From Archangium violaceum (GTDB taxonomy: Bacteria > Myxococcota > Myxococcia > Myxococcales > Myxococcaceae): a stretch of 64,000 bases of DNA. Below, in pieces: positions 32,821 to 37,069 of this stretch. The position numbers and the translations under genes were made by a program. How positions within the stretch are numbered: the first letter of the stretch is position 1; every line of letters begins with the position of its first letter. Under the pieces are notes generated by a model. The model saw only the letters and a program-made list of their open reading frames with translations. It was not told where the DNA came from and made no database searches. Where the stretch lies: positions 1,701,001-1,765,000 of the forward strand of contig NZ_CP069396.1 of assembly GCF_016887565.1 (NCBI RefSeq), written 5' to 3'.

Positions 32821-35800
32821 TCAGTTTTTCAGCTGCTCCAATTCCTGCTTGTCCAGCCACAGGTCCTCGAAGCGCACCTGCGGGGGGGTCTGGTGCAGCC
32901 GCAGTCCCTGCACCCGGCCGCTCGCCGCCGCGTGCACGCGGTGGTGGAAGAGCGGGATGGTGGGGCAGTCCTCGTGGACGATCTGCTCCGCGAGCCGGTA
33001 GAGCTGCTTGCGCTGCTCCGGGTCGATGGTGACGCGCGCCTCCGTGGTGAGCCTGTCCAGCTCCGCGTTGCGGTAGCCCAGCGAGTAGATCAGCTGCGCC
33101 TTCGAGTTGAGGTGGAAGAAGAGGAAGTTGTCCGGATCCGGGTAGTCGGCGATCCACCCCACCCGGAAGACCGGCAGCCGTCCCTCGCGCCGCCGCTCCC
33201 CGAAATCCTCCGCGCGCAGCTCCTGGTGCCTGAGCTCCACCAGCCCCGCCTCCACCAGCGGCCGGAACAGGACGGTATCCTCCTCCGAGGTGTCGCGCCC
33301 CACCGCGTGGTAGATGGTCAATGGCAGCATCCGCAGTCCAGCCTCGCGCAGCAGGCGCTCGGCCAGGCCGATGTCCAGGCGCGGCTCGGGCATCAAGCCC
33401 TCGTCGTCCAGCAGCTCCGGGGGCGTCATCGAGCGGGCCACGCGCGCGCCCTTGTGGAAGTGGTCCACCAACCCCTGGATGTCCATGCCCGCCCGGATGG
33501 CCTTGCGAACCCGCACATCGTTGTACGGCGCCTCCCTCAGGCTGAAGCCGAGGAACGACGTGGAGGGCGTGGTGCTGGCGACCACCTGTTGCCCGTCCTG
33601 TTCGAGCGACTCCACGTGCCGGGCGAACAGGTGGGAGACGATGTCCACCGTCCCTTCCCGCAGCGCGGCCACGGCCTGCTCTCGCGACTCCACCAGATGG
33701 AACTCGAGCCGGTCCAGCAGGGGCTGTTCCTTGCGCCAGTAGGTGGGGTTGCGCTCGAGCGTGATGAGGCTCGAGTCGAAGCCCACCTGCCGGAAGGGGC
33801 CCGTGCCCACCGCCTGGCCGCCCGGACCCAACCGGGCCACCGCCGCGCGCGGCAGGGTCATCAGCTGGAGGAAGAAGGCCTTGGGCTCCTCCAGCCGTAT
33901 CTCCAGCGTGAGCTCGTCCAGCACCTCGATGCCGGTCACCTCGCGAGCCTGGCCCGTGACGAACGCCTTGGCGCCCTCCACGTCCTCCAGCAGGCCTCTA
34001 TCCGGCGACTTCACCATCGGGTCCAGCAGCCGCTCGAAGTGACGCTTCACGTCGCGCGCGTTCAGCGGCATCCCATCGTGGAAGGTGACGCCCCGCCGCA
34101 GGTGGAAGCGGTAGCGGCGTGCCGAGGGATCCGCCTCCCAGCGCTCGGCCAGATCCGGCACCAGCACGCCATCATCCATCCGCAGCAGGCCCGAGAAGAC
34201 GCAGGCGCACATCTCCAGCAGCTGGTTCTCCACGGCGAAGAGCGGATCCAACCCGCCCTGCACCCGGACGAAGGCCGTCTGGTGGATGCCGACGTGCAGC
34301 GTGCCGCCCGGGTTCGGCGCTGGCAGCCGGAAGCGGAACACCTCTCCATCCAGACTGGCCGCCTCGTGCGCCAGCTGCTCCACCGTACGGCTCAGTCCGT
34401 CGCCGATCCGGATGACCTGGAGCGCGTCCTCGCGCACCCGAGCCACCTCCTCGCCAATGGCCGAGTCCCCGCGCATCAGCACGTCGTGCGCCGCGCGAAT
34501 CTCCTCGATGGCCGTGCTCAGCCGCACCACCGCGTTGGACAGGTCGCGGCCCGTGCGCGCCTGGCCCTCCGCCTTGTGCGAGGCCTCCTGTGCCAGCTTG
34601 GCCATCTGCTGCGTCTGGTGCACCAGCTCGCGCCCGTGCCCCGCCTGCTCGATGGCCGCCCGCGTCACGTCGTCCACGCGCCGCGCCACCCGTCGGCTGG
34701 CCTCCACCACCGTGGAGCCCTGGGCCTCCAGCCGCTTCGTCTCCGCCACCGTGGCCTCCACCGCCGTGAAGGTGCGCTGGGTGATGGTGCGGATCTCCAT
34801 CAGCGCCTCGGCCGCCCGGTCTCCCAGGAGCACGCCCGTGCCGGCCTGCTCGCGGCCCTCCTTCACCAGCGAGACGGCCGTGTCCACCTCCCTGCGCACG
34901 CCCCCGACGATGGTGGCGATCTCCCGCGTGGAGCGCGCGGTGCGCTCGGCCAGGCTGCGGATTTCATCCGCCACCACGCCGAAGGGCCGGCCCTGCTCGC
35001 CCGCCTGCGCGGCGATGATGGCGGCGTTGAGCGCCAGCAGGTTCGTCTGGTCGGCGATCTCCTGGATGACGTCCACGATGCGGCCAATCTGGGTGGAACG
35101 AACGCCCAGCGAGTCCACCAGCTCCGCGGCCTTGCGGACCGTCTCCTCCACCCGGTACATGCCCTGGACGCAGTCGTTGACGAGCACCTCGCCGCGCTCG
35201 GCGGTGGCCGTCACCGCGTGCGCCAGCTGGTTCGTCTCCGAGGCGCGGTGGCGCACGGCGTCGATGCCCGTCTGCACCATCTGGACGAAGGCTTCCGCCT
35301 CGCTGGCGAAGCGCGCCAGCTCGTCGCCCGAGGACGCGATGTGGTGCAGCCGCTCGCTCATGGCCTGCACCTGCTGGGTGGTGCGGTGCGAGAACTCGTC
35401 CAGCGCCAGCAGCGCCTCGGCCACCTGTCCCAGCCGCTCGGTCATCTCCACCAGCGAGCCGTTCGTCTCCTGGGCGAAGCTCTCCAGTTGCGTCACGCGC
35501 TTGCCCGCGGCCTGGAGACTCTGGCCCATGCTGTCCACCGACTCCTGTGAGCGCTCCACCGCTCCGCCCTGGCGGCGCGCGGCCTCCAGGAGCATGCGCA
35601 CCTCCTCGCTCACCCCCTGGCAGGTGCGGTGCACGTTGCCCGTCACCCGCTGCACCTGGGTGAGCGCGCGGCGCAGGGAGTAGAGGAGCCGGCGCACATC
35701 GCGCTGATCTCCGATACCCCCGTAGGACATGCTGGTGAGGTCGCCTTCGGCGAGCCGGGTGAGCAGGCTGCTGCGGTCCTGGGCGCGCTCCGATACCCAG

Positions 35801-35979
35801 GAGAACCAGAAGAGGTAGCTTGTCACCAGGAGCAGCGTCGGCGAGCCCGCGAGCAGCACCGTCCAGCCCACCCAGTCATCGGGGTGGCCGGTGAAGAAGC
35901 GCAGCAGTCCGCCGAGAACGAGGGCCAGCGTGAGCCCTCCGACGACCATGAAGGCGAGGAGATACTTTTTGGCGGCCAT
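32821..35979 (-). CDS. Chemoreceptor signalling domain fused to oligopeptide-binding (SBP_bac_5) domain
   Basis: A product of 1052 residues. Two membrane segments (about 5-27 and 37-60) are joined by a loop of only about ten residues, so there is no periplasmic sensor. Then comes a long methyl-accepting chemotaxis signalling helix pair (about 120-530) with the conserved tip [16 protein letters not shown] and [21 protein letters not shown] family 5 extracellular solute-binding domain (about 556-1040), of the OppA/DppA type, follows: [39 protein letters not shown] and [10 protein letters not shown]. By topology the binding domain would be cytoplasmic, not periplasmic. SgrR-type regulators provide a precedent for a cytoplasmic SBP_bac_5 domain. 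The ATG at 35979 (MAAKKYLL) is chosen over an open upstream extension. The ligand is unknown. Confidence 0.9.
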
Positions 35980-36052
35980 GAGTGTACGGTTTCGCACCGT
36001 AGCCCGCATTCTCGCTCGGGTCTTCAATTCGGCACAGACTGAGGGGGTGCTC

Positions 36053-37069
36053 GTGCTCGCTCCCTTGCTCCTGCTCGCTCTTCCCGCGGGGGGAGTGCCA
36101 TCCGCCCCCTCCCCGGTGGAGAGCGCCCGCTTCGTCTTCGCCTGGAGGGGCGTCCCCGTGGGGACCGTCACCCTGTCTCTCGACTCCGAGGCAAGACGCT
36201 TCACCTACACCTCTCGCCACCTGCACACCCGAGGGACGCACGTCGGGGAGAGCGTCCGGGAGGTCTCCTTGGAACTCCAACCCGGAGGCACGGTGGTGGG
36301 GCGCACGAGCGTTCCTCAGGCGCTGTGGTTGTGGCGAGGCCCCCCTGTCCTCGGGTGCGTGACGGGGCGGGAGGAACTCTCCGGTCGGGAGGGGCCGCAC
36401 TGTGTCACCGCCGTTCGGGGGGCCGTGGTGGAGGGCACACTGCTCGGCCAGCCCTTCACCGCGCACCATGACGAGCACGGACGGATGGTGGTGCTGGAGG
36501 TGGGGCAAGCGCGTTTCACCGCCGTGCCGCCAGGACAGCGGCTGAGGCCTCCCCCGGAGCTCTTCGCGGAGGGCCTGCCCGTGGAGGGGGAGTCCGGTCC
36601 GCTCGCCTTCTCGCCCGCATGGCCCGCGGAGCCGCGCCCAGGATGGCTGACGGCCTGGCGGGCGTTGGAGGCGCGGGCGCTCGCGGCGGAGGTTCATGCG
36701 GCCTTCGCGGAGAAGGGCCCGGGCGCCGCGGACTTCCGTGAGGACGGTGAGGGCGAGGCGGGCGGGTGTCTGGCGCATGCGTCACGCTTCGCGGCCCGGG
36801 CGGCGGCGCGCGGGCAGCGAGTGGCGCTGGTGCACGGGTTGCTCGTCGTGGACGGAGGCCCCGCCCGGCCTCATGCCTGGGTGCGCGTGGGCCTCGTGGG
36901 GGGCGGTACGTTGGAACTGGATCCCACCTCGTTGGACCCCGTCACCCCCGAGACGCATCTGCCGCTCGCGGTGGCCCGGCCGGGAGCGCCTTCGGTGGAG
37001 GCCGGGGAGCGGTGGCTGGCGCTGCTGCGCGGTGAGCACCGCGTGGTGCGTCTCAGTCGAAGGGAATGA
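36053..37069 (+). CDS. Secreted transglutaminase-like protein
   Basis: About 338 residues with a signal peptide ([18 protein letters not shown]). The N-terminal half is beta-rich and resembles DUF3108-like domains ([18 protein letters not shown]). The C-terminal part carries a transglutaminase-like triad in order: Cys239 in GGCLAHA, His274 in PHAWVRV and Asp290 in LDPTSLDP, with typical spacing. Such proteins are cysteine proteases, amidases or crosslinkers of the periplasm. The start at GTG 36053 has GAGGGGG five bases upstream; an ATG at 35978 would make a poorer leader. It is divergent from the chemoreceptor fusion and its 3' end overlaps the astA 3' end by 17 bases. Confidence 0.72.

Follow-up and report, generated by a model that had tools for sequence, protein, structure and literature searches.

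An McpK-type orphan chemoreceptor of Archangium violaceum with a C-terminal oligopeptide-binding-type domain predicted to face the cytoplasm

The 64,000-nucleotide stretch of the Archangium violaceum genome analysed here (the window; NZ_CP069396.1, positions 1,701,001 to 1,765,000) holds a gene for a chemoreceptor that continues, beyond its signalling helices, into a complete family-5 solute-binding domain (SBP). Within Archangium, the protein represents a known, uncharacterised kind of receptor, exemplified by McpK from Myxococcus xanthus. With modest confidence, it is regarded as an orphan receptor that senses internal peptides, or a related metabolite, and signals through its C-terminal helix.

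The open reading frame lies on the minus strand, from an ATG at 35979 to a stop codon ending at 32821, and is one intact gene for a chemoreceptor of 1052 residues with a C-terminal domain of the oligopeptide-binding type. An in-frame GTG extension up to 36204 is also present; the start conserved among 39 aligned homologues is the ATG at 35979. The MCP and the complete SBP domains share this single frame. Pfam recognizes MCPsignal at residues 251–427 (123 bits against a cut-off of 34.6, E 1.2e-35) and SBP_bac_5 at residues 606–959 (228 bits against a cut-off of 32.4, E 3.3e-67), and gives no match to HAMP in this receptor. Since solved oligopeptide-binding proteins (OppA, DppA) match residues ~576–1026 over nearly their whole length in sequence comparison, the SBP is whole at the sequence level, with both lobes. 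The features of the gene are collected in Table 1.

Table 1. Features of the McpK-type receptor gene, in window coordinates.
Feature	Position	Strand	Basis
McpK-type chemoreceptor gene, C-terminal solute-binding domain, 1052 aa	32821..35979	(-)	ORF, Pfam, matches in family genomes
Predicted membrane helix 1, residues 7-29, after a short N-tail rich in Lys	35893..35961	(-)	Hydropathy and charge, 39 homologues
Predicted membrane helix 2, residues 39-60, ~10-residue loop from helix 1	35800..35865	(-)	Hydropathy and charge, 39 homologues
HAMP-like remnant, residues 63-110, motif LAEGDLT	35650..35793	(-)	Aligned with the HAMP end of the McpJ-like receptor
MCP helical hairpin, residues 111-552	34324..35649	(-)	Pfam MCPsignal 251-427; alignment with the McpJ-like receptor
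Signalling tip, residues 310-350, most conserved part	34930..35052	(-)	89% mean identity
Complete family-5 solute-binding domain, residues 556-1045, predicted cytoplasmic	32845..34314	(-)	Pfam, sequence matches to solved structures, hydropathy
Asp945 codon, aligned with OppA Asp419	33145..33147	(-)	Alignment; Asp in 38 of 39 homologues

Asp945 gives an indication of the ligand. This residue aligns with Asp419 of OppA, which binds the alpha-amino group of the peptide, and it is an aspartate in 38 of the 39 homologues. It lies in a strongly conserved motif, W-x-x-D-x-x-D-P-D, in which Trp942, Asp948, and Asp950 are invariant. The retention of Asp945 makes a peptide-like ligand likely; to judge by the alignment, the ligand probably bears an amine and would most simply be a short peptide. 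The whole two-lobe domain and the amine-anchoring aspartate are shared with OppA and DppA. However, those proteins are exported and work with ABC transporters, whereas the fusion, of which the SBP is the C-terminal part, has neither a signal peptide nor adjoining transporter genes. By contrast, L063, a stand-alone SBP encoded in this genome, has a lipobox-like N-terminus and is followed by permease-like ORFs.

It is unlikely, despite a precedent, that the cytoplasmic SBP senses some other metabolite (an amino acid, a sugar phosphate, or an arginine-derived compound), as the C-terminal SBP_bac_5 domain of SgrR does. The precedent is that of the SgrR/DsvR transcription factors, which are cytoplasmic and hold a C-terminal SBP_bac_5 sensor like the fusion, and among which SgrR, reported to bind glutamate, counts in favour of this alternative (PMC13060122). 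Unlike the fusion, these regulators have a DNA-binding output, and no N-terminal DNA-binding (HTH) domain was found in the receptor. Furthermore, the SgrR profile matches the fusion SBP weakly (26.8 bits against a cut-off of 476, E 1.9e-6) and over ~70 residues, whereas the oligopeptide profiles cover the whole domain. A sugar phosphate, proposed beside peptides in the first-pass annotation, was discarded as a candidate, this same short SgrR match being the one point in its favour and nothing specific to such a ligand being found.

The genetic neighborhood offers a second argument for another metabolite. About 1 kb upstream of the receptor lies the only gene for an AstA-like arginine succinyltransferase in the genome (37053–38078, minus strand), and, of the neighbours tested, AstA alone remains near the receptor in L032, a homologue from another family. 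AstA is found within ~5 kb of the receptor in 18 of 33 flanking loci; however, four genomes with the receptor have no AstA at all, and six carry it on a different contig. The link is thus not obligatory, a functional connection between both genes is weakly supported, and no arginine-related ligand is claimed. The single AstB of the genome is encoded elsewhere, at 11.06 Mb. Between the receptor and AstA, a divergent gene (36047–37069, plus strand) shows a weak transglutaminase-like match, and the remaining neighbours are unrelated genes. Associated che genes, which the first-pass annotation had proposed to look for in other genomes, did not turn up near the receptor in this one: the closest match to a CheW domain lies at a distance of ~340 kb, and the receptor is therefore an orphan.

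Improbable, too, is a loss of small-ligand binding, by which the SBP would have become a docking or scaffold domain, for instance for a peptide transporter, at its cytoplasmic face, or for another regulator. Many SBP positions are indeed more variable than those of the MCP, and the nine neighbour proteins scanned include no ABC permease or other transporter component. Nevertheless, both the strong conservation of the amine-anchor motif and the retention of the full two-lobe length argue against such a loss.

Conservation also differs among the other regions of the protein. Mean identity over the 39 homologues is 89% in the signalling tip, 70% in the MCP helices, 63% in the SBP, and 42%, the lowest value, in the N-terminal hairpin, and the junction EVFRFxLP....GGTL is kept in nearly all of them. 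That the hairpin is the true sensor (of membrane state, lipids, or proton motive force), with the SBP merely modulating it, is very unlikely. Although the hairpin is kept in nearly all homologues, it is the least conserved region, and its consensus contains no invariant charged residue.

The first-pass annotation had described two membrane helices separated by about ten residues and had placed both the MCP helices and the SBP inside the cell, and the homologues bear out both statements at the level of prediction. Hydropathy of the window protein reveals hydrophobic segments at about residues 2–31 and 41–59, ~10 residues apart, and a two-segment hairpin with a ~10-residue loop opens nearly all 39 aligned homologues; the hydrophobic stretch of L032 and L034, both distant homologues, is instead shorter or merged. 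Over the 39 homologues, the N-tail of six residues contains on average 1.74 Lys and Arg residues, compared to 0.33 for the loop and 4.4 for the 20 residues after helix 2, a positive-inside pattern that supports an N-in/C-in topology. Past residue 120, the window protein has no predicted membrane helix, its maximum 19-residue hydropathy (1.29) being under the level of a helix, and none recurs between MCP and SBP across the 39 homologues. Two of these, L039 and L061, have single SBP windows barely over the hydropathy threshold of 1.5 (1.52 and 1.55, respectively); as these are missing from the other homologues, they resemble buried strands or helices.

The conservation of the tip fits a cytoplasmic contact with CheA and CheW. 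As the tip would lie inside and no helix separates it from the SBP, the latter is predicted to be cytoplasmic as well, with both termini inside. AlphaFold2 models made from few homologues reached a mean pLDDT of 42 for the SBP alone and 39 for the whole protein, which counts against the favoured reading. An external SBP, arising from a single spanning helix or from an extra helix ahead of the domain, is most unlikely: the three TMHMM helices listed for McpK in Table 1 of PMC3945109 would switch its side, but no hydrophobic segment recurs between MCP and SBP, in the absence of one, an external C-terminus would bring the conserved CheW/CheA tip outside as well, and the charge bias favours N-in/C-in.

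The same fusion, sought in other genomes as the first-pass annotation had advised, is widespread. It is present in 88 of 96 family genomes and in 80 of the 83 of good quality (E <= 1e-70), nearly always at full length and with 52–96% identity to the window receptor. Beyond the family, three more families of the order or class contain relatives with ~37–48% identity; a scan of genome contigs for the fusion returned Archangium relatives only. Since the window sits within a single 13.2-Mb contig and the fusion recurs nearly always full length across the family, a chance fusion or an assembly error joining two genes, the latter considered in the first-pass annotation, is ruled out.

Two orthologues are exceptions. 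In one genome (G057:C4:214696-217831) the gene is broken exactly at the MCP/SBP junction, with residues 1–556 and 555–1050 in different frames, owing to a split or a sequencing error. In another (L050 5744-9050, G062) the hairpin reads as unrelated, frameshift-like sequence while the remainder is intact, so that helix 1 appears to have been lost via a frameshift. Several Archangium genomes hold a second McpK-type copy, 77–80% identical to the window protein (L059, L015, L008, and L010), and none was detected in G000 or G003. Two of these second copies (L059 and L015), available with several kb of flank, lack the AstA neighborhood.

The architecture is real, and its novelty is limited by the fact that it was already tabulated in 2014 for McpK (MXAN_6456) from M. 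xanthus. According to the main text and Table 1 of PMC3945109, McpK has 1048 residues, an MCP signalling domain at 246–463, a solute-binding domain, no HAMP, three TMHMM helices, and an orphan gene. The layout of MCP and solute-binding domains, the lack of HAMP, and the orphan position are shared with the window receptor, and several orthologues also have 1048 residues. Both differ in the number of membrane helices, three in the published table and two here; homologue hydropathy does not support the third. That main text contains no analysis of the topology, ligand, or conservation of McpK, and McpK-GFP is outside the ten clearly localised fusions it describes in M. xanthus, which counts against the favoured reading. 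Direct orthology to MXAN_6456 is presumptive; nearly all family genomes contain one full-length relative, and synteny is conserved. A search of mainly open-access literature found nothing beyond PMC3945109 on MXAN_6456 or on other MCP-SBP_bac_5 fusions.

How a ligand bound inside the cell might act on the receptor can be outlined from the domain arrangement. The short hairpin would merely anchor the receptor dimer in the inner membrane, and the MCP bundle would extend into the cytoplasm, with its tip touching CheW/CheA. As in MCPs of known geometry, the C-terminal helix would run back from the tip to a membrane-proximal level. Counted from the tip (~residue 324), the C-terminal helix spans ~220 residues and the N-terminal one ~240, which should suspend the SBP at the membrane's inner face, where a linker of a few residues would tie it to the C-terminal helix. 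The SBP would close upon binding a ligand from the cytoplasm that has a free amino group, most likely a short peptide that was imported or released by protein turnover; as the linker is so short, lobe closure could shift the C-terminal helix directly, changing CheA activity and, in turn, motility or development.

Chemoreceptors are usually informed of external solutes by binding proteins in the periplasm. A C-terminal cytoplasmic sensor following the MCP helices is also found in TlpD-type chemoreceptors; however, their CZB domain is an unrelated and far smaller zinc-binding domain, and TlpD, unlike the fusion, has no membrane anchor. Tentatively, and with less confidence than the receptor function itself, McpK-type proteins might constitute a near-universal myxobacterial gauge of internal nutrients, in which an inside Venus-flytrap domain reads the peptide pool and drives the MCP from its C-terminal helix, rather than through a periplasmic sensor and HAMP, for chemosensory control of motility or development. 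If so, the chemosensory network of a protein-eating predator would be coupled to its internal peptide or amino-acid state, and a large two-lobe domain would be able to drive an MCP bundle from the C-terminal end. The interest of the system is moderate, since M. xanthus, which has a counterpart and genetics, allows a direct test of the inside-facing binding domain.

The closest other MCP of the genome suggests how the fusion may have originated. This receptor of 729 residues with HAMP and MCPsignal (L062 3893-6079, G000:C1:2570615), called McpJ-like here for its resemblance to M. xanthus McpJ in size and layout, scores 293 bits against a profile of the fusion-receptor family, compared to 117 for the next MCP. 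Both proteins align from residue 75 to 552 of the fusion over 486 columns; the eight gapped positions all fall within the HAMP-like region, so that the MCP helices align ungapped. The tip NAAIIAAQ occurs only in these two among the receptors of the genome whose tip was found, the others having a glutamate in place of the second isoleucine. Unlike the fusion, the McpJ-like receptor has an N-terminal sensor region and HAMP, and it ends at the equivalent of residue 552, just where the SBP begins (residue 556). One simple scenario derives the fusion from an McpJ-like receptor that would have gained a binding domain at its end, its outer sensor being reduced to a hairpin.

This relationship also bears on the signalling partner. 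PMC3945109 groups McpK with DifA, Mcp7, McpJ, and McpB and suggests a link to Dif from the heptad class 44H. The assignment to the Dif module was not adopted here, as the tip and the HMM score in Archangium favour the McpJ-like receptor instead, and any partner kinase is to be taken as a candidate. Lastly, the fusion has two consensus-like methylation sites, both poorly conserved, compared to eight in the McpJ-like receptor, and methylation-based adaptation may therefore be reduced in the fusion receptor.
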